IMG/VR virus record: IMGVR_UViG_3300023236_000046
Coordinates: 1 to 20,039 of that record
DNA length: 20,039 nt
DNA from: a virus
Strand: one strand, 5' to 3'
The notes under the pieces were generated by a model that had not been told where the DNA came from, did no database searches, and saw only the letters and a list, made by a program, of their open reading frames with translations. The translations under genes and the position numbers were made by a program. The first letter of the stretch is position 1. Every line of letters starts with the position of its first letter. This document shows, piece by piece, positions 1-19,352 of the stretch.

Positions 1-3000
1 ACTCTACCCAGCCCTGAGTCATCTCAATAGTGCTTTGTCTAATTTCTTTAAGTCTCCCGAGAAGATCATCAAGATCTGAGGCTTTGGGGCCTCCTCCACC
101 GCTGCCGCTAGCCTCTTCTTCCACCTCTACGTCTTCAAAGGTGGCGTCTACCGATGAAAGCTGGCTGGTAACCTTGTCCCCCATTGACTCTGCATACAGT
201 CTTTGCCACTTTGCAAGGCTGTGTCTTCCTGGGAAGGGTCCATTAACCTGTCCTTCGTCTCCTGTCCATTTTTTAAAGTCATCGCTAGCTATAAGCTCTG
301 CCTGATCCATTTCAAGAATCATGCTGACTGTTTTTACATACTGCTCTTTATCGGTTTCTGGGAGCATATCAAAGTACAGTTCGTCAAAAGCCTCTGCGTT
401 TTGTAGTTTTGGATTAATTTCGTAAGCCTGATTAGTAGTTATTACCCCCATGTCTGCACGGTTAAAAATTTCTTCTAGTTTTTCAGAAACCTCTTCGTTT
501 TCAGAAACATATCGAAGAATTACGTCGGTATCAAAGACTGCGTCTTGTTTTTGTATTTCTCTTACAAAGTCTAAAATTTCTTGAGCTTCTTGCTCATTTC
601 CTGCACTAGAAATTTTAACAAAAATATCTGCCGCAAGACTTTCGTCGTCGACTAAGGATAGGATTTGTCCCGCTTCGTCTGCGAAGACTCCTCCAAACGT
701 ACCAAAGATATTTAGAAGAGCGTCTTTCTGAGCTCCATCTTCGCCTATAAAAGTAAGTAAAGAATTTAAAGCTTGTGGAGATATAGCTCCAGTTGCTAGC
801 TCTAAATTAATCATATCTTTATCTGCTTCTTCAAAGGTCTTTAGCAATGCTTCAATTCCTGGCATTACTAGCTTTGCGTCTGCATCGTCTTGGAACCTAG
901 TTTCTATTGCTGCGCTGACACCGGCTCTGGCTGCTTCTGCACCCGGTCCGCTTATGACTCCCTTCATTTTTTCCCGGAGAGCCATCTCTTGCTCAGACAT
1001 TTCCACTTTCTTTTCTTCAAACTCTACCTGAAGTCTCATCTGCTCGGTAATGTCGCCGTTAATCTTTGCCTCGTCTATTTTTTTAATATAGAGTGCATCG
1101 ACAGCGTCTGAGAGCTCTTGCTGTTGTTGCAAAGAATTTGTTATTGATCCGACAACCGCACCAGAAAGTTTTCCAGCCTCTTCTGCCGCATCCTTCAAAG
1201 CAAAGAACCCCCCTATGGCACCCCCGATGGCTCCGATCGTGGCACCCATGGCGACAGTCAACGGGGCCAGGGGGCCACCGATAAGGCCCAGGGCTGCTCC
1301 TGCAGCCGCACCCGCACCGGCCAGGCCAAGTACCCCAGCGGTCGCTTCGCCCACGGTATCCCCAAAGACACCATCTAGGTTTCTATTCATTACATCTATC
1401 TGCTTATCTACGGCATCCATGTTATCCAGGTTAACCTGAGCAGAAAACTCTACGAGGTTTCCGGCAGAAATATCTTCTCCATTAGGACCAACAAGCCCTG
1501 AAATATTGGCACGAACCTGTAATCCAATTTCCATGTTGTTAAGAGCAAACCCAAGGTTTGCGGCCATACTGGAGGCCTGCTCCTTAGTTAGCACTCCGGT
1601 CATCACGGCTGTAGATAGCTGGCTAGTCAAGGAGTTTATTGTAGCAGAGACATCTCCGGTTTGAGCAATTTGGGTCTTCGCCGCTTCGATTAGGGCTTGC
1701 CCCCTTTCATCTGCAACAAAAGACTCTCCAAATGTTGTTTTCCCGGGTGCTGTGTTCACACCCTTTAGCCTGTCTTCTCTGGCTTTGTCCATGAACTCTC
1801 CAGCAGAAACTGTACCTGCAAAATCTGCCAAAGACTTCATGGCTTCTGTCCCAGACCCCAAAGCCTTGGCTAGCTCCATAGCTTCTTTCTGAGATGACTT
1901 CATTTTATTATTAAGCATAAACACCGCGCCGATAACTGCCAAGATCGCTGCGGCCACGGCTATTAGTGGGCTCTGAAGTGCCTGGAATAGCATTGGGGCG
2001 GCAGATAGTGCCATCAATGCTGGCATAAACTTTTGAGCCTGCTCTCCTAGGGCTCCCGGTGCCATTGATGCTCCCATTGTTAAAGCACTCAGCCCCATGC
2101 TTAGCCCAGCACCGCCACCAGTAATTCCTTTTCGCTTTGGCTTTGGAGCATCCCTATTGCCCGTTTTTCCTTGGCGGCCTCCCCCACTGCCGCCGCCGGT
2201 AGCGTTCATCTCTGCACTGCTTTGTGTAGCAGCATCTCCATTTTCTCTAACTGACTGTGTATGTTGATCAACGTTAGTCGAAGCCTCTTGAGATGTATTT
2301 CCAAGCTCCATAATGTCTACATCAAGAACGCTAAACGAGTCTTTTAGCCCCTCCATTTTCCCAGTGGTGGTGGCAAACATGGTACCGGTCTGCTGATCAA
2401 AAGTAGCGAGCCTGTTATCAACCAATGCCTGGTTTCTTGCTTGGATTTCAGCAATACTTTCACCTGGAGGAACTTGTCTCGGAGCTCTTTGTGTTTGCTG
2501 TTGTTCTGGGGCAGAAGAAACAACCTTACCCTTACTATTAACAATGTCGCCACCGCTAGTTTCTGCAAAGTAGTTTCCAACGCTTTGGCCAGGGCCAGTC
2601 TCCATAAACCTATCTAGGGCTTCGTTTCCGATACTTTTTGCTTTGTCTTTAAAGTTAGAGAATCTACCACGTTTTTGGTTGCCAGCAGATCCTCCAAGTG
2701 GCGGTGGTGGTGGAGGAGCAAGAGAGCCAGATTGTCCACCGGCTGCGACGTCAAAATTTTCTCGATATTCTTTGCCATCGTCTGATCCATCTTGACCGGA
2801 AAGTCTGTGTGGACTACTTCTATCTCTAATTCTTGGATAAGGATCATCTTCTGGAGTTACAGCAGATTCTGCTCCCTCAATGTAGGCCTCCATGTCCTGC
2901 ATTCCGTCTGGACCTGGCAGTGCCTCGGAAGGTTGCTCGGAAAGTATTTGCTTGTTTTTTTCTGCAAGCTCTGCCTGACGCTGAGCCTGCTCTTCAGAGA

Positions 3001-5935
3001 GCCCTACTTTCTTCCTTCCACCGTAAGATTTTGGAAGGCCTCCACGGTCTTTGGTTACCGTAGCTTCTGTGGCCTTTAGTCTTCCATTGCTACTAACACG
3101 TCCAATCTTAACACCGTCTTTAGTAACAACCTCTTTACCGCTTGAAGTTAGTTCGGCATCTCCCGCATCAATTCTTGCTTGCAATTCTTCTGGAGCATTT
3201 TCAAACTTACTCCTTGTCTTTCCGGCAGAAGTTCTTCTCTCTTCTAGCCCCTCACCGGCTTTTCTTTCTGTTGGATCTTCCGATTTACGCAATATGTCAA
3301 TTTCTTCTTTTGCAGCGGCGGCTACAATTTCATCGGTTACCGTTGTTCCAGCAGCGGTCGCCATTGCGGCGGCCCTATCAACAACCCTTTGCTGAATACC
3401 GTCTGCAAGCTTGTCAACATCTGGGCCAATTTGTCCCATTGCAGCTTCTAATGTTTTTCTAAATGCACCAGGAATTGCGTCTAGAGACATTGCCTCTGTC
3501 CAAATTGCTGGATCTACCCCCTGGCCCCCCTCTTTCAAAGCTTGATTTATCCAGCTTGGCATGTCAATGGTCAAGTCTGGCAGGAACATAATGTTCGGGT
3601 CTACAATATCTTTTTCAGAGAAACCTTGGTTAACTAGTTTTTCGAATATGGCTGGGTCTGCTGTATCGAGCTTTGGAGCCATGTGTCCGCGTTGAGTTGA
3701 TGATGTATCTGCCCCTGGTTTTCCACCATTGTATCCGGGAATGTTTCCGGATATCATTCCTTCAATTATTGGTGCGTATCTCTTTGCCATCTCTGCCGGA
3801 ATAACAGCTTCTCCCGGAGTAAGAAGTGATAGCTCAGTATCTTTATTTCCTGTTCCTGGAACTGAAAAAATTCCATCTGCATATTTTGGTGGCATAAACG
3901 GATTGGTAGATGGCTTTGGTGCCCTAATCGCCGCCCCACCAGCTGCTTTTGCTGTTGCTGAAGCTGCAGGCGAACCCTGAGCTGACAAGAATGCCTGCTG
4001 AGCAGTAATGGCTCTTCCGTATGCGCCGGTCAGGTTTGCAACCGCCCCTGCTTCAGCGTTAAATGTTTGAATAAGTGTTTGATGAACCTGGTCAAGCGAG
4101 GCGGCTATGGCGGAAGACTCAATTTGCTCAGAATTCATGTAATTTATTTGTTCAGTTAGAACATTCGATGCCCCGCCGACTTTGCTAAACGCTCCAGAAA
4201 TCTTAGTGCCAAATAGCAACAGGTTGGCTATACCGTTAGCCAAAAGACCAATAACCATAAGAACTGCTGGGGCAACAACTCCCATTACTGCTACAAGGCC
4301 TACTACGAACTGTTTTGCCCCGTCACTCATACCGTTAAAGCGATCAAGAATTTTTGTTCCAAATTCAAGAATCGGAGTTGCTAGCTTTAAGAATGCTTCG
4401 CCTAGAGGTGCAAGAGCTACCTGAAACTCTTCTAAGGCTTTTTTGAACTGGAACATTGACGAGGCTTCAACTCTGCCAAGCTCTCTTTCGGCAATAACTC
4501 CAAGCTCTCTAGCATTGCTCGAAGCAATTTCTAAAGTTTTGCTTGCCTGGCTTCCCTCTTTAGTTATGTTTTGAAATAACGTAGAAATACGAGCAAACTG
4601 AAACTTTCCAAACAGCTGCTCAATTGCCCTAGCTCTGTCTAGTGCATCTAAGTTGTTTAGCGCACCAGCGAGAGACATTACCGTTCCACGAAGATTCCCT
4701 GCATTCTGATCGACAATTCCAACAACATCAATTCCAAACTCTTTCATCTTGTCGATAGACTGCTGAGTTGGGTTAATAATACTGGCAAGACCAGACTTTA
4801 GTGCGTTAGCCGACTCGCTTGCGTTAATGCCACCTTCACGCATTGCAGTCAAGAAAAACGCTAGATCTTCAACGTCTCCACCCAACTGTTGAATAACAGC
4901 ACCGGCTTTTGGAATTGCAACGTTAAAGTCTTCAATTGAAAGAATGGTCTGGTTTTCTACGGCATTAAGAAAAGCAATCTTGTCTGAAAGCTCTTCCGTT
5001 GACAAACCAAAGGCATTAGTCAAGGAGATAGTGGTATCTAGTGCCTCTTCCTGTTCGATACCGCCCAGCACAGCAAGTCTGGTGGCCTGTGTGACCTGGT
5101 TTGTTAGGTCTGTTCCAGTTGAACCTAGCTGTGCAACCGTAGCGGCGAGTTCTACTGTTTTTTCTACTGCTATGCCGTATTTGGTAAACTCTGTAGCAAG
5201 CTGTTTTATGTCTTCAATTGCTTTTTCAGTTTCTGCCTCGGAGGTGAACATGTCTCCATAAACACGCTTAAACCGAATAGCCTGCTCTTCTAGCTTCATG
5301 AACTCTCGGCCAGCCATAGCCCCCATGATTGTCAGTGGAATAGTAAAGCCAACCATAAGTTGACGACCAGCCCACTGAGTGTTCTTACCCCAGTTAAGCA
5401 GGTTTATTGAACCCTGTCTAACTAGCTGATTTAAAAGTGCTTGTTTTTGAGCAGCTATTGCTGTTTGTGTTCCAAGACTTTGAAGATCTAGAGTAAGTGG
5501 ACGAACTCGGATTGCCTGCATTGCGCCATTGGCATCACGACCCATCTTGATATACTGAGTCTGAAGACCTTTAACTCTTTCTCGGGCGACCTTGTTGATT
5601 GTGTTAAATTCAGACTTGAACAGCCTTCCAAAACTTTTTGTAGACGCTCCAGCAAACCTAAAATACTGTCCCATGGACAGCTTGTTTTTTTCTAGGGCAT
5701 TCGTAAAAGACTCAGTAGTGCTGCTAATTCGAGTCATATTAGCACTAAACTGGCCAGTAGCATTTATGCCATTGACCAGATTGCGCTGTAGATTTTGAGC
5801 TTGAGCAGCGGCGGCGGCACCGCCTTTTGACATTGTTGAATGGAAAAGGGATATCTGCCGTTGCAGCTGCTTAATTTGTGCTAACGCTGCTGACGCATCA
5901 ACATCTATTCTAATATTGGCGTTGGTATCAGCCAT
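1..5935 (-). CDS. Tape measure protein (3' end outside window)
   Basis: Sets tail length and acts as the scaffold on which the tail tube polymerises; probably also ejected during infection. The reading frame is open from ATG 5935 to the window edge (1978 codons seen, no stop). Residues about 190-420 match the TP901-type tape measure core (WAGRQLMVGFTIPL, then a helix-rich stretch with TREGGI-like AMREGGINASESANAL). Hydrophobic segments lie near residues 541-577, 1314-1342 and a Gly/Ala-rich one near 1523-1580, typical of tape measures. Residues about 697-725 carry the motif PGTGNKD followed by LTPGEAVIP, common in Gram-positive phage tape measures. The middle (about 760-1250) is charged, low in structure and has a run of prolines near 1072. 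Start chosen because GAAGGG lies about 10 nt upstream; it begins 27 nt after the short chaperone gene, the normal place for this gene. Identity is firm; the C-terminus cannot be seen. Confidence 0.94.
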   Translation of the reverse strand, partial: MADTNANIRIDVDASAALAQIKQLQRQISLFHSTMSKGGAAAAAQAQNLQRNLVNGINATGQFSANMTRISSTTESFTNALEKNKLSMGQYFRFAGASTKSFGRLFKSEFNTINKVARERVKGLQTQYIKMGRDANGAMQAIRVRPLTLDLQSLGTQTAIAAQKQALLNQLVRQGSINLLNWGKNTQWAGRQLMVGFTIPLTIMGAMAGREFMKLEEQAIRFKRVYGDMFTSEAETEKAIEDIKQLATEFTKYGIAVEKTVELAATVAQLGSTGTDLTNQVTQATRLAVLGGIEQEEALDTTISLTNAFGLSTEELSDKIAFLNAVENQTILSIEDFNVAIPKAGAVIQQLGGDVEDLAFFLTAMREGGINASESANALKSGLASIINPTQQSIDKMKEFGIDVVGIVDQNAGNLRGTVMSLAGALNNLDALDRARAIEQLFGKFQFARISTLFQNITKEGSQASKTLEIASSNARELGVIAERELGRVEASSMFQFKKALEEFQVALAPLGEAFLKLATPILEFGTKILDRFNGMSDGAKQFVVGLVAVMGVVAPAVLMVIGLLANGIANLLLFGTKISGAFSKVGGASNVLTEQINYMNSEQIESSAIAASLDQVHQTLIQTFNAEAGAVANLTGAYGRAITAQQAFLSAQGSPAASATAKAAGGAAIRAPKPSTNPFMPPKYADGIFSVPGTGNKDTELSLLTPGEAVIPAEMAKRYAPIIEGMISGNIPGYNGGKPGADTSSTQRGHMAPKLDTADPAIFEKLVNQGFSEKDIVDPNIMFLPDLTIDMPSWINQALKEGGQGVDPAIWTEAMSLDAIPGAFRKTLEAAMGQIGPDVDKLADGIQQRVVDRAAAMATAAGTTVTDEIVAAAAKEEIDILRKSEDPTERKAGEGLEERRTSAGKTRSKFENAPEELQARIDAGDAELTSSGKEVVTKDGVKIGRVSSNGRLKATEATVTKDRGGLPKSYGGRKKVGLSEEQAQRQAELAEKNKQILSEQPSEALPGPDGMQDMEAYIEGAESAVTPEDDPYPRIRDRSSPHRLSGQDGSDDGKEYRENFDVAAGGQSGSLAPPPPPPLGGSAGNQKRGRFSNFKDKAKSIGNEALDRFMETGPGQSVGNYFAETSGGDIVNSKGKVVSSAPEQQQTQRAPRQVPPGESIAEIQARNQALVDNRLATFDQQTGTMFATTTGKMEGLKDSFSVLDVDIMELGNTSQEASTNVDQHTQSVRENGDAATQSSAEMNATGGGSGGGRQGKTGNRDAPKPKRKGITGGGAGLSMGLSALTMGASMAPGALGEQAQKFMPALMALSAAPMLFQALQSPLIAVAAAILAVIGAVFMLNNKMKSSQKEAMELAKALGSGTEAMKSLADFAGTVSAGEFMDKAREDRLKGVNTAPGKTTFGESFVADERGQALIEAAKTQIAQTGDVSATINSLTSQLSTAVMTGVLTKEQASSMAANLGFALNNMEIGLQVRANISGLVGPNGEDISAGNLVEFSAQVNLDNMDAVDKQIDVMNRNLDGVFGDTVGEATAGVLGLAGAGAAAGAALGLIGGPLAPLTVAMGATIGAIGGAIGGFFALKDAAEEAGKLSGAVVGSITNSLQQQQELSDAVDALYIKKIDEAKINGDITEQMRLQVEFEEKKVEMSEQEMALREKMKGVISGPGAEAARAGVSAAIETRFQDDADAKLVMPGIEALLKTFEEADKDMINLELATGAISPQALNSLLTFIGEDGAQKDALLNIFGTFGGVFADEAGQILSLVDDESLAADIFVKISSAGNEQEAQEILDFVREIQKQDAVFDTDVILRYVSENEEVSEKLEEIFNRADMGVITTNQAYEINPKLQNAEAFDELYFDMLPETDKEQYVKTVSMILEMDQAELIASDDFKKWTGDEGQVNGPFPGRHSLAKWQRLYAESMGDKVTSQLSSVDATFEDVEVEEEASGSGGGGPKASDLDDLLGRLKEIRQSTIEMTQGWVE

Positions 5936-5962
5936 TCATTAGCATCCCTTCAAGTTTTTTGT

Positions 5963-6280
5963 CTACGTATTAACAATATTGTTAATAGCAGACATGTTTA
6001 CCCCCGAGGCCTCTTCAACAATCTTATAAACTGTTGGCAAATCTAGGCTGTCCTCAAGTGCTTTTGCGTCTCCAGCGATCTCTGGCTTGTACTGCTTCAT
6101 AGCGATCTGTACGCACTCCATTAGGATATCCATAGACTTGTCGTTGTTCTCGGCAACCTTTGCGATGCCTTCAAATTTCTTCATAAATTCTCTTAGTAGT
6201 GAAATTTTTAGTGGTCTGACTTGTAGCTCTGTTCCATCAAGGAGCTGTACTGTTTTTGCTTCGTTAACTGTTGTAGTCAT
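5963..6280 (-). CDS. Short tail assembly chaperone (G-like, paralogue of the next upstream gene)
   Basis: A 105-residue protein just upstream of the tape measure gene, the usual place of the lambda gpG-like chaperone that binds the tape measure during tail assembly. It aligns end to end with the first ~97 residues of the 225-residue gene upstream: shared LLREFM/FLREFM, IAMKQY, LED and LDLPTVYKI blocks in the same order. It has no T-like domain and stops at TAG 5963. An AAAGGA Shine-Dalgarno sequence lies about 12 nt before ATG 6280, and an extended -10 box lies about 37 nt upstream. Chaperone assignment rests on position, size and paralogy with a protein that carries a T-like C-terminus. I see no frameshift signal before its stop. 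Confidence 0.82.
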   Translation of the reverse strand: MTTTVNEAKTVQLLDGTELQVRPLKISLLREFMKKFEGIAKVAENNDKSMDILMECVQIAMKQYKPEIAGDAKALEDSLDLPTVYKIVEEASGVNMSAINNIVNT

Positions 6281-6316
6281 TTGTTTGTTTTTTCCTTTCG
6301 ACGAGCTACATCTATA

Positions 6317-6325
6317 ATTATAGCA
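6317..6325 (-). promoter_or_regulatory. Extended -10 promoter for the short chaperone
   Basis: Minus strand reads TGCTATAAT, a perfect extended -10. No convincing -35 is seen 17 nt upstream (TATAAA). A start of transcription near 6310 would give a leader of about 30 nt that includes the AAAGGA ribosome binding site. Confidence 0.6.
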
Positions 6326-6340
6326 TAGCTGGATTATCTT

Positions 6341-7018
6341 TTATAGCTTTTTGTAGTCGAGGCCCATCCCAATTCCAAAGCCAGCTTTAGCAGCAGTTTG
6401 TCCCTGCAAAGCCAAAACGTCATTTGGATCCGATGTTCCTCCACCACTGAATACCCTTGCTTTCATTTCTTCCCAAGCATTATTCTTTCGGTTGTTCTTA
6501 TCTAGATCTACCCCTTGAATTGCGGCAAGAAATTTTTTCTCTTGGTAATCGATGTCTCTCTTAGAAGAAAGTATAGCAGTTATTTCTGGCATTGACAAGG
6601 AGGACTCCAGCTCTTCGTAGTCTTTCCATATACCCAGTAAAAATACCTCAGACTCTAAGCCGACCAAGTCTAGTGTTTTCCAAGTCTCGCCGCTGCTTTG
6701 GGCCTGCTCTTTAACTGGCTCGCTTTTATCTTCGTTAACTTTAATTCCTGCAGCAATATCAATTATCTTGTATACCGTTGGCAGGTCTAGATTGTCTTCT
6801 AAGTCTTCTATTGTTTTAATAGACGGATAGTACTGTTTCATTGCTATCCTTGCACACTCAGAAAGAACTCCTACGGCATCTTCGTTATCTGAAATACTGT
6901 CTAGCTTTTCAAAAGCCTCCATAAACTCTCTTAAGAATTTAATCTTCAATGGCGTAATATATACCTCGGTGTTATCTACCAGTTTAATTGTTGTTGACTC
7001 ATATACCATGGTTGCCAT
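6341..7018 (-). CDS. Long tail assembly chaperone (fused G-T type)
   Basis: A 225-residue protein. Residues 1-97 are the same domain as the short chaperone downstream (PLKIKFLREFM, IAMKQY, LDLPTVYKI). After a short linker (about 98-115) comes a second domain with EVFLLGIWKDYEELE, LSMPEI, EKKFLAAIQGVDLD and WEEMKARVFSGG, resembling the T part of G-T chaperones of actinophages. In most siphoviruses that part is reached only by ribosomal frameshifting; here it is in frame from the start. ATG 7018 was preferred over the TTG at 7060 because the extra 14 codons lie inside the preceding terminator and upstream of the predicted transcription start. ATG 7009 is a possible alternative. No Shine-Dalgarno sequence; the promoter -10 ends 6 nt before the ATG, so a leaderless mRNA is likely. 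Family call is good; the exact role split between the two paralogues is inference. Confidence 0.83.
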   Translation of the reverse strand: MATMVYESTTIKLVDNTEVYITPLKIKFLREFMEAFEKLDSISDNEDAVGVLSECARIAMKQYYPSIKTIEDLEDNLDLPTVYKIIDIAAGIKVNEDKSEPVKEQAQSSGETWKTLDLVGLESEVFLLGIWKDYEELESSLSMPEITAILSSKRDIDYQEKKFLAAIQGVDLDKNNRKNNAWEEMKARVFSGGGTSDPNDVLALQGQTAAKAGFGIGMGLDYKKL

Positions 7019-7024
7019 TACTCT

Positions 7025-7053
7025 AGTATAGCAAAATAAAATCGCCCTGGCTA
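7025..7053 (-). promoter_or_regulatory. Extended -10 promoter of the long chaperone, leaderless
   Basis: Minus strand has TGCTATACT at 7033-7025, six nt before ATG 7018. With the usual 6-7 nt from the -10 to the start of transcription, the mRNA would begin on or next to the ATG. A 4/6 match to a -35 (TAGCCA, 7053-7048) sits 17 nt upstream, inside the terminator hairpin of the previous gene. Confidence 0.65.
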
Positions 7054-7066
7054 ATGCCAAGGCGAT
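7033..7066 (-). terminator. Rho-independent terminator after the major tail protein
   Basis: On the minus strand ATCGCCTTGGC (7066-7056), loop ATTA, then GCCAGGGCGAT (7051-7041): an 11-bp stem with one G-U pair, followed at once by TTTATTTT (7040-7033). It begins 27 nt after the tail-protein stop codon. The T tract runs into the promoter of the next gene. Confidence 0.85.
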
Positions 7067-7092: not shown

Positions 7093-7749
7093 TTAGCTAC
7101 CAGCTGGGATGGTACGGTCCACAATCTGTCCGTAGGATGCGGAGGCATCTGCGGGGAGAAGTCTAAACGATACCTCGAACATTGTTGGCTCGTCGCGCTT
7201 AGCTGATACGGTAACGCTCTCAATTGAGAGTGCACGGTATGCAACATAAATACGCTCGATCTGGTCACCAAGTGCACAGTCTCCTGTACCTGGGCCAACC
7301 GCTACCAAGCCACGCTCGACAGCACACTCTCCAATGTCACCGGCGGACATGTTCATTACTGGGTTACCAATAGCGAATCCGGCTGTAGACGTTGCGAGGT
7401 CTGCATCTTTACCGGCGAGGGCAAAGAGAAGATTCTCTAGAGTGGACTCAGCAAATGCTGTGTTTAGATTAACCTGCATACCTTGCTTGTAGAGTTTAGC
7501 TACGTCAAGGAGCTGGTCAACCTGGACCTCACCAAAGTCGGGCTGGAAAACAATTTCCAAACCGTTCATGGTGTACCCAACGTTACGAAAATCTGTGTCC
7601 GTTGATAGTGTTTCACGGAAAGATACATCGTCAATAACGTCTGGCAGGTCTGCTTCAGAAAGCTCGGAAGCTCCTGCAGCTGGCTCGTATGTAAAGAGTG
7701 CTGCTGCACCAACAATAATGTTAGCACTTGATCCTCTTGAATATGCCAT
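7093..7749 (-). CDS. Major tail (tube) protein
   Basis: A 218-residue protein between the connector genes and the chaperone/tape measure genes, the usual place of the tail-tube subunit. It starts MAYSRGSSANIIVGAAALF, is rich in short beta-like stretches and in small and acidic residues, and ends with a section reading FEVSFRLLPADASASYGQIV, consistent with tail-tube proteins. Strong expression is implied by its own promoter, a GAGGTG ribosome binding site 7 nt before ATG 7749 and a clean terminator after the stop. Assignment rests on position, size and expression signals; no catalytic motif is expected. A contractile phage would have a sheath gene beside it and none is present. Confidence 0.82.
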   Translation of the reverse strand: MAYSRGSSANIIVGAAALFTYEPAAGASELSEADLPDVIDDVSFRETLSTDTDFRNVGYTMNGLEIVFQPDFGEVQVDQLLDVAKLYKQGMQVNLNTAFAESTLENLLFALAGKDADLATSTAGFAIGNPVMNMSAGDIGECAVERGLVAVGPGTGDCALGDQIERIYVAYRALSIESVTVSAKRDEPTMFEVSFRLLPADASASYGQIVDRTIPAGS

Positions 7750-13466: not shown

Positions 13467-13495
13467 ATTATAGCATCATTTTTACAAAGTTACAA
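13467..13495 (-). promoter_or_regulatory. Promoter of the protease-scaffold gene, leaderless
   Basis: Minus strand TTGTAA (13495-13490), 17-nt spacer, and an extended -10 TGCTATAAT (13475-13467), then 9 nt to ATG 13457. This is the only promoter here with both elements in a reasonable form. A short direct repeat (TTGTAAC, TTTGTAA) covers the -35. Predicted start of transcription is 0-3 nt before the ATG. Confidence 0.7.
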
Positions 13496-15102: not shown

Positions 15103-15482
15103 TAGCCCTCGTCTCCGTATACCTGTAATGTTTTCTTTGCCGCAATAAGAGCTCCTAGATCATTCATGCTAGGAAGCAAGCCCTGAGACATTCTGTCTAC
15201 CTGCTCGCTGTGCTCTTCTTCGGAGATCTTACGCATATTGGGATAGAATACCGCTTTACCCTCTGACTGCCCCCAGTGAATGGCGGCATCTTTAAGTTCT
15301 TTTACTCTAGATTTGTCATCTCTCATTGACTCAATAGAAAGAGCATTGCCCTGACCGTCAGTAAAGGCTTTGCCATTAGGCTTGTGCCAAACATACGTTC
15401 CAAAGTTAGAAAACTTTTCCTCTACAACTTGTACTTTGGTTTCTCCGACTTGACCGGGAAATCGTGGTTTATTCCTTTTCAT
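15102..15482 (-). CDS. Small protein of unknown function preceding portal (126 aa)
   Basis: Function not recognised. The protein is hydrophilic, begins with a basic MKRNKPRFPGQ, has GTYVWHKPNGKAFTDGQGN near residues 28-46, a charged middle (MRDDKSRVKELKDAAIHWG) and a helical C-terminus ending KKTLQVYGDEG. No signal peptide or membrane segment. ATG 15482 was chosen over the upstream GTG 15488 because the promoter -10 ends at 15490, so the GTG would lie before the transcription start. There is no ribosome binding site; the mRNA should be leaderless. It is the first gene of a two-gene unit with portal, which suggests a head or packaging role, but nothing in the sequence proves it. Confidence 0.78.
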   Translation of the reverse strand: MKRNKPRFPGQVGETKVQVVEEKFSNFGTYVWHKPNGKAFTDGQGNALSIESMRDDKSRVKELKDAAIHWGQSEGKAVFYPNMRKISEEEHSEQVDRMSQGLLPSMNDLGALIAAKKTLQVYGDEG

Positions 15483-15489
15483 AACCACT

Positions 15490-15498
15490 AGTATACCA
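15490..15498 (-). promoter_or_regulatory. Extended -10 promoter of the 126-aa/portal unit, leaderless
   Basis: Minus strand TGGTATACT, then 7 nt to ATG 15482. It sits in the 18-nt gap after the large LamG-type gene. No clear -35. Confidence 0.65.
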
Positions 15499-15500
15499 TA

Positions 15501-18500
15501 TTAAACAGGAGTGGTCGTACTCTGTGTCCATCCCAAACCATTGAATATACTATACTGATAGTCTTTAAGAGTAAACAGTTGATCGCTTTCTGAAATTGTT
15601 CTGTTTGTTCCGGTATATATATCATATATATTTCCAGCATCAAGTTCTTCCCTCAGGGTTGTTGACAAGAACAGCACCTCCTGCCAGTCAAAAGCTTCTC
15701 CTACAGGAACAGTCTCTTCACCAATGACCTCTTTACCGGCCCAGTATCCCCAATCAATAGGGTCTCCCAAAAAACTCCTAACTGCAAACCACTGCCTAAA
15801 ACCAAAACGCTCTTCGTCGTCTGCAAGTGTTGTTTGATAAAAGCTAAAATTGTTAAACATTATTGGGCTTGTTATTCTGAGTGCTCCGACAAAGCCTCCG
15901 ATATCAAGAAATCCTGGGAAGGATAAACCTATGGCATTCCAGGTATTAGAATAAAGAACTGGTCTTTTAGACGGCACACCATTATTAAAGAAAACAAGGT
16001 TACCCGATAGTTGGTTTGTTCTTGCATTCAGCGCATAGATTTGACCACGTTTTCTATTTGCACTATCTGCTATTAAGAAAAACTTGATGTAAACATCTCC
16101 AGACTCTATTTCAAATATTTTTACAGGAACTTCTGGGAACAGATCTTCTCCATACTTTAGGGAGATCTGTAGAGAGCCAATCTTGAAAAATGAAGATGCG
16201 TTTGTATTGAGGGGAATAGAGATACCGGCATTATTTCTATTATCATATGTTGTCCTAACTTCTATACCGCTATTTGAGGTGTTGTATAGGTATGGGCTAC
16301 TTCCTTTATAGATTGCAAATGGGGGAGCTGATCTATAGTCGAAGTACCGACCAACCTTTCTAAAGGGTACTAGGTTGGTTCCAAACTTTGTTCCAATCTT
16401 ATTAGGGGAGTTGCTGAATGCTTGAGATGATATTTGTAAAGATCTTGTTGTAACTGGGCTAAACCTTATACCGTCTATTTCGTATTCTAAATAAAGATTT
16501 ATTGAAATATTTTTAAAATTTACATTTGGAGGTGGGTAAACAATAGTTCCGTCAACAACCTCATATTTTGTATTGAGCCAACTTGAGTTTGGTCTTACGA
16601 TACCTGAAGAGTCTAGCAATTGCTTGCTGGTAAAATTATCCTCTACAGAGTTAGAACCATCTCTTAGGTATTGGAATGCTACATAGGCTTTTACTAAATT
16701 CTGAGATGTGTCATACTTGTTAGCAGAATTAAAAATCTTCATATTGGGATAATCTAGGTTTACCTGCAAAAAGTCAACCCTGGATTGCTTCCTTCCAAAA
16801 GCGTTTACAATTTCCTTGGAGAAGTAAGATAGTGGAACATAGTCTTCCCAGAAAGAATTAACGGCAATGTCTAACATAAACATCCCCATGTTTATTTTTG
16901 GCAAAAGGGTATAGGTTGCTATGTGGTCAATAGCCCTTATTGCTTGGAAGTCGTAGGGGTCTCCGCCGTCCAGGGCAAGTTCCCAGTAGTCTGGGTCGTT
17001 GCCAAAATATTCATCCCCCGCATCATATATACTGGGGCCAAAATGCTCAAACACATTTTCGTAATCTACGGGTATCCCATCTTCATTAAATAGATGGGAT
17101 ATTTTTTTAAGATTTCTTGCACTAGTAAAACCAATCCTATAAATATACCCACTAAAGGTATTAGCTAGATTCTCTGATCCAGCAATGTATATTGCTAAAT
17201 TTTGCCTGCTTCCAAAAAAGTTTCCTAACTCTCTTCCATTTTGCCTTACAAATCTTGGCAAATGTATTCCAGCCATAAACTTTTTTCCAACAGAGTGTCC
17301 TGGAGCGGTATAGAATATAGTATCCTTAAAAGAACCGTTGGCTAACTTAGTTATAAAAGAATAATAAATAGTTGAGTCATAAGCATAGATCAAGTCTGTG
17401 TCTGCTACTGCTTCTATAGTTGTAGCTTGATTTGCCTGAACTTGATAAGAAAGCGAAGTATCCGATATTACGAATATTTGATAAAATCCTGTGGGGACTG
17501 TTTGAGAGCCTTCAATAAGAATCTTCATACCAGTCTTGAGTCCATGCCTTATTCCAGATACGGTTACTGTTTGTCCTAACTGACTAACTGTTATTGAGTT
17601 ATCTAAAAATGGACCTATTGGGTTACCTCTGTAATACACCTCTACTGTGTTAGAAGTTGTAGAGTTTGTTACTTGAAATAAAGTTTGTTTACTTAAGGAT
17701 ATTTCCTTTGATTCAAATACCCCATAGAATGATCTTGTTTGTTCTTGCAAAAAGTTCATGTTGGGAAACGATAGATGTCCCCCAGTGCTATCCCAAGAAC
17801 CGTTGGGCTTTAGAGTAATTTTTAAATTTTCTAAATCTTGTGACGCTTCTAGATCAGAGAGCCATCTGGACTCTGTCTTGTCTGTGAACCTAACCGTTGG
17901 GGTTGGGTGATTTGGGGGGCCTAGTGCGTCTCGCTCTGTTACAAGATTTTCCAAGCTTCCATTAGCCCATCTGCTGGATGATGGAAAATAAAAGTTTTTT
18001 GGATACTTGGCAAATGGGTAATCTACAAAAACAGAAGAGGAAGAGTCTAGCCCTTTAATATCTACGGGAACCTGAACACCTTGGCCATATATCCATCTTC
18101 TTTTTGCAACTATGGCTGCTACCTCGTATGGGTAAACTCCAACGCAATCTATTTGAATAAGTGGGACATCTTCGTAAGCATAGAAACCTAGCCAGTCTTG
18201 ATCTAATCCATCCTCTATACTGGCTGGGAAGGCGTATGACGAGGGATCGAGGTCTAGTTCAAGCAATATGGCACCGTTAATTATAAGCTCCCCCTTAGTC
18301 GCTGAGAGCCTTATATCAACAAGCATGGGCCTATCCCATTCTCTAATAAAGTGTGACACAACCTGATTCCCAATTCTTAATTTTAAGAATGGTCCTTCTA
18401 CATAAAGTCCGTCAGTAGACTGGATCGGGCCAAAGATTCTTCTAGCAACTATGGCAGAAGATTTTATCTTAATCCAGAACTCAGCAGTGAGTCTGTTTAG

Positions 18501-19352
18501 CTGACCTGACCTATTCATAAATCCAAAACCTGGAACAATCAAGGAGGGAGAGTTTGCTTTAGGAGTAAGGTAGGTTGCATTTTGAGACCCAAAGACTAAG
18601 GGTAACCCATAGTTTCTAGCTACCAGGGCGTTATCATCTGCAATGTAGTATCCATTTGTGCCCGGCAAGCCGTAAGGCTGTGCCTCTATTCCTTTTGTTG
18701 CTTGTATTGCAATGCTATCTGGAACATCTATAAGCTGTGCACCAAATGATCTAAGCTGAAATTCTTCTGCCCATTGACCAGCGGTAATACCGTTAATTGA
18801 AAATTCGTATGAAGAGTTTTGATCTTCATAATAAATTTCAAATATTAGCTCTAAGTCTTGAAAGCTTGTCGGCAAAATAAAAGTTTCCGATACCGCTGCC
18901 CATGCCAGTGCGGAGCTCAAAGCCGCCGCTTTAATTACTTCATTTACTTCTGAGGTATCTGGATCTGTATACCTAAATCCAACTCTAAAGTCTAGAATTT
19001 TGTCAAATGAATAAACATATGCAGATGCAGAAAATGTTTGCTGTTCTGCGTTTACGTCTGCTGGATTTATAGCAAATGGGCTAGTAAAAGTGACAAGACC
19101 GTTATTTGTTGGATCAGTAATAACTCCATTGGCAAACCTGTCGGAGAATGGAAAACTTGGGGGAATAAGAGAAAACACCTGATCATCTCTTGCATTTACA
19201 ATGCTTGTGACACCGGTGCTTGTCCAATTACTCAATTGTTGATCTGAATCAGACAAGAAAGATATGTAGTCGGCCTTGTCGTCCAATGCCCACAAACCTA
19301 GAGGGTGCTCAGAAAAAACCTTAGTGGCATATAGATTTAAAGGATTAGCCAT
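15501..19352 (-). CDS. Large LamG/concanavalin A-like virion protein (probable adhesin or appendage)
   Basis: A 1283-residue, strand-rich protein. Residues 1-12 (MANPLNLYATKV) start a region ending in HPLGLWALDDKAD, a pattern often seen at the front of LamG-type proteins. Residues about 287-425 form a concanavalin A-like jellyroll (LTAEFWIKIK, then DRPMLVDIRLS, GELIINGAILLEL, VGVYPYEVAAIVAKRRW). A second jellyroll-like stretch spans about 500-760 and is interrupted near 585-647 by a small beta domain (VTVSGIRHGLKTGMKILIEG). A third strand-rich part lies near 1030-1190. No signal peptide, no coiled coil and no catalytic motif found. Such proteins are structural and often bind glycans at the host surface. 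ATG 19352 is 7 nt from an extended -10 and lacks a ribosome binding site. Its place before the portal gene is unusual. Confidence 0.8.
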   Translation of the reverse strand: MANPLNLYATKVFSEHPLGLWALDDKADYISFLSDSDQQLSNWTSTGVTSIVNARDDQVFSLIPPSFPFSDRFANGVITDPTNNGLVTFTSPFAINPADVNAEQQTFSASAYVYSFDKILDFRVGFRYTDPDTSEVNEVIKAAALSSALAWAAVSETFILPTSFQDLELIFEIYYEDQNSSYEFSINGITAGQWAEEFQLRSFGAQLIDVPDSIAIQATKGIEAQPYGLPGTNGYYIADDNALVARNYGLPLVFGSQNATYLTPKANSPSLIVPGFGFMNRSGQLNRLTAEFWIKIKSSAIVARRIFGPIQSTDGLYVEGPFLKLRIGNQVVSHFIREWDRPMLVDIRLSATKGELIINGAILLELDLDPSSYAFPASIEDGLDQDWLGFYAYEDVPLIQIDCVGVYPYEVAAIVAKRRWIYGQGVQVPVDIKGLDSSSSVFVDYPFAKYPKNFYFPSSSRWANGSLENLVTERDALGPPNHPTPTVRFTDKTESRWLSDLEASQDLENLKITLKPNGSWDSTGGHLSFPNMNFLQEQTRSFYGVFESKEISLSKQTLFQVTNSTTSNTVEVYYRGNPIGPFLDNSITVSQLGQTVTVSGIRHGLKTGMKILIEGSQTVPTGFYQIFVISDTSLSYQVQANQATTIEAVADTDLIYAYDSTIYYSFITKLANGSFKDTIFYTAPGHSVGKKFMAGIHLPRFVRQNGRELGNFFGSRQNLAIYIAGSENLANTFSGYIYRIGFTSARNLKKISHLFNEDGIPVDYENVFEHFGPSIYDAGDEYFGNDPDYWELALDGGDPYDFQAIRAIDHIATYTLLPKINMGMFMLDIAVNSFWEDYVPLSYFSKEIVNAFGRKQSRVDFLQVNLDYPNMKIFNSANKYDTSQNLVKAYVAFQYLRDGSNSVEDNFTSKQLLDSSGIVRPNSSWLNTKYEVVDGTIVYPPPNVNFKNISINLYLEYEIDGIRFSPVTTRSLQISSQAFSNSPNKIGTKFGTNLVPFRKVGRYFDYRSAPPFAIYKGSSPYLYNTSNSGIEVRTTYDNRNNAGISIPLNTNASSFFKIGSLQISLKYGEDLFPEVPVKIFEIESGDVYIKFFLIADSANRKRGQIYALNARTNQLSGNLVFFNNGVPSKRPVLYSNTWNAIGLSFPGFLDIGGFVGALRITSPIMFNNFSFYQTTLADDEERFGFRQWFAVRSFLGDPIDWGYWAGKEVIGEETVPVGEAFDWQEVLFLSTTLREELDAGNIYDIYTGTNRTISESDQLFTLKDYQYSIFNGLGWTQSTTTPV

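Follow-up and report, generated by a model that had tools for sequence, protein, structure and literature searches.

Two genes with nested promoters probably replace the programmed -1 frameshift at a tail assembly chaperone locus of uncultured phages

The window analysed here is the whole stretch of 20,039 nucleotides of the IMG/VR virus record IMGVR_UViG_3300023236_000046, in which the structural phage genes lie on the minus strand. Between the gene for the major tail protein and a long frame at the tape-measure position there are two genes for tail assembly chaperones, one encoding a fused long form (G-T) and the other a separate short form (G). This placement matches the order in annotated relatives. 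The features of the locus, in the direction of transcription and with promoters as predicted from their motifs, are as follows.

7093..7749, minus strand: major tail protein gene, the upstream context (PHROG 2175, E 2.8e-30)
7041..7066, minus strand: hairpin of an intrinsic terminator, located past the major tail protein gene and ahead of the long gene (-19.6 kcal/mol, z -5.3)
7025..7033, minus strand: putative extended -10 promoter of the long gene, TGCTATACT, with exactly 6 nt between its end and the long ATG
6341..7018, minus strand: tail assembly chaperone G-T, the fused long form (225 aa in a single uninterrupted frame)
6317..6325, minus strand: putative consensus extended -10 promoter of the short gene, TGCTATAAT, 36 nt before the short ATG
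6293..6298, minus strand: AAAGGA, a Shine-Dalgarno-like motif ahead of the short ATG
5963..6280, minus strand: separate short-form chaperone G, 105 aa, 48% identical to long-form residues 1-95
1..5936, minus strand: downstream frame at the tape-measure position, leaving the window and assigned by position only

The major tail protein of the window is 45% identical to annotated Streptomyces phage major tail proteins. The downstream frame has its start codon about 27 nt past the stop of the short gene, and is read as the tape-measure gene because that gene follows G/T in Karimac and Yaboi. An initial annotation of this DNA had described the two chaperone genes as following each other from long to short along the direction of transcription, with the short product resembling the N-terminal part of the long one and a T-like second domain present, in frame, in the long form only. 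All three observations hold. In BLASTP, residues 1-97 of the short form align with residues 1-95 of the long form (47/97 identical, 70/97 positive, E 3e-30). Similarity between the two proteins had been set beforehand as a point on which the proposal could fail, and at 48% over 97 residues it is strong. The G domain of the long form covers residues 1-97 and the T domain about 113-225. The G parts of both forms match PHROG 10504, and the C-terminal half of the long form matches PHROG 10474 (E 4.9e-15); both families are labelled as being of unknown function, and the PHROG 10474 match corresponds to the T open reading frame of Streptomyces phages. When aligned, the T domain is 41% identical to the T of Karimac. 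A Pfam search gave no usable match for either protein, and sequence searches of the PDB with the chaperone proteins gave chance matches only. Predicted structures of the two forms have a mean pLDDT of 75 each, and for both models the HK97 chaperone 2ob9 ranks first in the PDB list, with weak Z scores of 4.1 and 4.5. The G-T protein of N15 is among the matches to viral models (BFVD, E 8e-3). Purifying selection acts on all three parts in relatives, where the median dN/dS is 0.07 for the G part of the long form, 0.05 for the T part and 0.07 for the short G.

Few features of long-tailed phages are as conserved as the low-frequency frameshift between G and T, and in the lambda system it is usually the fixed ratio that is argued to be what counts. 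Relatives of the locus were searched for by tblastn, using the two halves against 50,697 phage records. Matches were found in 127 Streptomyces phage records and a few Rhodococcus phages, mostly in genes annotated as tail assembly chaperones, and genes 59 and 60 of Enygma are among the homologues (42% identity over 90% of the query, E 9e-32). Seven cultured phages were inspected, and in each the open reading frames of G and T overlap, T lies in the -1 frame and a second G is absent; the joined frameshift product is annotated in the records of Yaboi, Sham, NiceHouse and Francesca. Four scans of IMG/VR, taking the best 80 matches per query, gave 320 loci. Two of these scans used the T domain alone as query, so that they are unbiased as to the presence of a second G. 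After duplicates were removed, and with the window and the phage records included, 237 distinct loci were listed. Across these the two-gene and the frameshift architecture are mutually exclusive. The G-T frame is single in all fused loci listed, and one further G accompanies each fused gene whose downstream sequence can be read (183/183); five fused genes that have no second G stop at a contig end. The overlapping-frame loci listed have a single G in 46 of 46 cases, 43 of them with ample downstream sequence. Sequencing error was considered as a source of the fused or split frames and discarded, because in no readable locus do the architecture and the occurrence of the second G disagree. A scan of genome contigs found no relatives, so no host can be assigned by that route. 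Judged by the sequence relatives that were found, which are actinophages, the two-gene group is a large uncultured group of actinophage-related phages. The phage collection that was searched yielded no isolate of this group.

The two architectures also differ in their slippery sites. Among the loci listed, all 46 of the frameshift type have a slippery motif in the G/T overlap, 36 of them a strict heptamer (CCCAAAY, CCCAAAA, GGGAAAC or GGGAAAA) and 10 the motif CCCGGAA. In fused genes of the window type, G and T share one frame instead of T lying in the -1 frame. A conserved slippery site that makes both forms from one gene was looked for in the long and the short gene and found in neither: heptamers of the form XXXYYYZ occur near the junction in 18 of 109 long genes, and a slippery heptamer is present in just 1 of 109 short genes. 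The 18 heptamers could be taken as a sign that the long gene still makes both forms, either by dnaX-like slippage to a truncated G or by proteolysis, in which case the short gene would have another function, for example in capping or regulating G-T. We hold this to be very improbable, as the heptamers are scattered and share no common position, and the history of the two G domains, discussed below, speaks against it as well.

Each gene has its own characteristic start signals. The hairpin upstream of the window long gene is followed by a T-rich tract (7040-7034), and a terminator-like hairpin precedes 182 of the 187 long genes listed and none of the shuffled upstream sequences. This count depends on an explicit stem search, which gave 104/107 and later 182/187, while a strict tail rule gave 43/107. 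The long genes listed all start with ATG (187/187), where it should be kept in mind that the start-site choice in the scripts favours an ATG close to the domain start. A -10 element lies 5-9 nt before this ATG in 186/187 of them, and its spacing is exactly 6 nt in 88/107, against 1.1 expected from shuffles; it is an exact TATAAT in only 45/187. No Shine-Dalgarno sequence was found upstream of the window long ATG, and among the long genes listed a Shine-Dalgarno-like motif occurs in 1/187. With a -10 element this close to the start codon and the motif this rare, the mRNA of the long gene is probably leaderless or near-leaderless. No literature linking leaderless messages to tail assembly chaperones was found. 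A candidate internal promoter in the long gene, at 6570-6578, was rejected, being present at that place in only 1/109 relatives.

The short genes are organised differently. Among those listed, an extended -10 element is present in 185/185 and is an exact TATAAT in 182/185, at a distance of 23-50 nt, and a Shine-Dalgarno-like motif is found in 184/185. A terminator precedes the short gene in 1/185, and no terminator-like hairpin was found between the long and short genes in the 107 loci checked. The contrast that had been drawn from the window alone, between a leaderless-type long gene and a Shine-Dalgarno-led short gene, thus extends to the relatives (motif in 1/187 versus 184/185). Given the exact TATAAT in 182/185 short genes versus 45/187 long genes, the short-gene promoter would be the stronger of the two. 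In frameshift-type loci, G has a Shine-Dalgarno sequence in 45/46 cases and a -10 element mostly 22-36 nt away, and half of these genes start with TTG or GTG. This start layout resembles that of the short gene, which would therefore have retained the ancestral one. It is conceivable that the contrast between the two genes merely reflects how the phage starts many of its genes and is unrelated to the dosing of G versus G-T, as TGNTATAMT also precedes a number of other structural genes in the window, and the copies at 15490 and 13467 lie near a start codon. We regard this as improbable. Among other open reading frames of these loci, counted from a length of 150 aa upwards, few have a -10 element 6 nt before their first ATG (10/511), and nearly all loci preserve the contrast between the long and the short gene.

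The trees of the individual domains give some insight into how the two genes arose. In the T tree, frameshift lineages are basal. The G trees place all long G domains in one clade and all short G proteins in a second (support 97 for each, both branches starred); with more rows in the trees, support is 93 for the long and 51 for the short G. When both are compared with the nearest frameshift G among the loci listed, it is short G that comes closer in 98-100% of cases, and mean pairwise identity is 70% for short G, 54% for long G and 69% for T. Being closer to frameshift G, more conserved and equipped with the same start layout, free G probably retains the ancestral role and arrangement, and it would be the G part of the fusion that diverged. 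The proposal of a duplicated G domain stands in so far as there is a second G gene, and is refined in that the copy resembling ancestral G is the short gene, and the one that evolved faster is the G of the fusion. Within one genome short and long G are only about 42% identical, a distance that would also suit the idea of a long gene making both forms beside a short gene with a separate function; against that idea, it is the short gene and not the long G domain that is nearer to ancestral G; its promoter and Shine-Dalgarno sequence are also laid out in the ancestral way, and the short gene is never missing.

Whether the two-gene layout arose once is less clear-cut. In a free tree of T and the major tail protein, two frameshift groups (L197/L204 and L208) nest among the fused loci, and the starred branches force at least two changes; in the G trees, the L197/L204 group adjoins short G. 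The layout could accordingly have arisen repeatedly, or some lineages could have reverted to frameshifting through recombination with relatives. We consider this unlikely, if by no means negligible. The compared genes are short and phages recombine, long G and short G each form a single clade, and a tree that holds the fused loci together is 17.4 log units better and is not rejected (p-AU 0.72). A single origin in the ancestor of the group is the simplest reading of this likelihood comparison and the most likely one. It is worth noting that the nearest frameshift-type relatives fall into two sets, one consisting of L189, L197, L204, L252, L256, L261, L264, L291, L294, L314, L323 and L326 and the other of L208, L220, L231, L232 and L241. 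Both are nested inside the two-gene group in one tree, and they may record a switch or a reversal.

Taken together, we think it very likely that the programmed -1 frameshift at this tail assembly chaperone locus has given way to a pair of genes that rely on nested promoters and on their own translation starts. This reading builds on what was observed of gene content and frames, of motifs and selection, and of the distribution of the two layouts; the promoters, the leaderless start and the ratio of G to G-T are deduced from the sequence. The terminator would shield the fused gene from transcription of the structural genes upstream, and the promoter abutting the long ATG would give a leaderless or near-leaderless G-T message. 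As there is no terminator between the genes, this message would continue into the short gene. The second promoter, nearer to the -10 consensus, would provide extra messages for G alone, to be translated from the Shine-Dalgarno site. Readthrough together with the second promoter would mean that G is transcribed at least as much as G-T. In this way, nested promoters and translation starts could maintain the excess of G over G-T that was once given by the frameshift. If the change was one event in the ancestor of the group, the G part of G-T would then have been free to diverge from free G. A further-reaching version, which we offer tentatively and would sooner doubt than defend, is that nested promoters and opposite translation modes replaced slippage in one step, that the G of G-T became specialised, and that the coat of the tape measure consists of two different G subunits.

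The lambda-type G / G-T systems related to this locus are those of the Streptomyces phages Karimac, Yaboi, Sham and Enygma (Stanwilliamsviridae). They have in common with the two-gene group the position of the locus, homologous G and T, and short and long forms that share G. The Stanwilliamsviridae have a single G gene and reach T by a -1 frameshift, whereas in the two-gene group the frames are fused, a second G supplies the short form and the conserved slippery site is absent. Similar solutions have been described elsewhere. According to the part of PMC10274946 that reports Vladimirov, Gautam and Davidson (2022), some T4-like phages have a short chaperone gene and a fusion gene that repeats the short part, without a frameshift. 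The window locus fits this scheme, with its short gene, its fusion repeating the short part and no frameshift, although T4-like phages are a different phage group and the likeness is one of description only (PMC10274946). In Microbacterium EA1 phages such as Figueroism, the relevant statement in PMC11659878 is that the chaperones are two separate genes, and by this description alone they and the window locus are alike. Gordonia papers considered as possible further cases of separate genes concern lysis genes. With short and fusion genes already reported in T4-like phages, in the account just cited, the two-gene principle is not new. What is new is the independent setting, together with close relatives that frameshift, start signals that are opposite in the two genes and conserved, and two G domains that have diverged.

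In the window group, the ancestral frameshift state is still present in close relatives. This amounts to a natural experiment, in which close relatives have the same proteins and one set uses frameshifting, the other two genes with nested promoters. It makes testable whether the ratio of G to G-T alone matters or slippage itself, and whether the G of the long form must equal free G. There is also a warning for annotation, as a second G gene next to a fused G-T is neither an error nor a redundant duplicate.

Some minor observations concern other parts of the window and of the related loci. The head-gene region contains, upstream of the portal gene, a 1283-aa open reading frame (15501-19352, minus strand) without a Pfam or PHROG match. 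The element TGGTATACT is found at 15490-15498 (minus strand), 7 nt before the ATG at 15482 of gene 15482-15102 (PHROG 9394, unknown function), which suggests another leaderless message. In L031, L039, L058-L061, L082, L145, L149 and L151, a -10-like element lies exactly 6 nt before the ATG of a second gene, near the start of an open reading frame of 174-190 aa located upstream. TGCTATAAT occurs a second time in the window, at 13467-13475 (minus strand), 9 nt ahead of the ATG of gene 13457-12120, which encodes the head maturation protease; the C-terminal part of this protease is acidic and coiled-coil-like.
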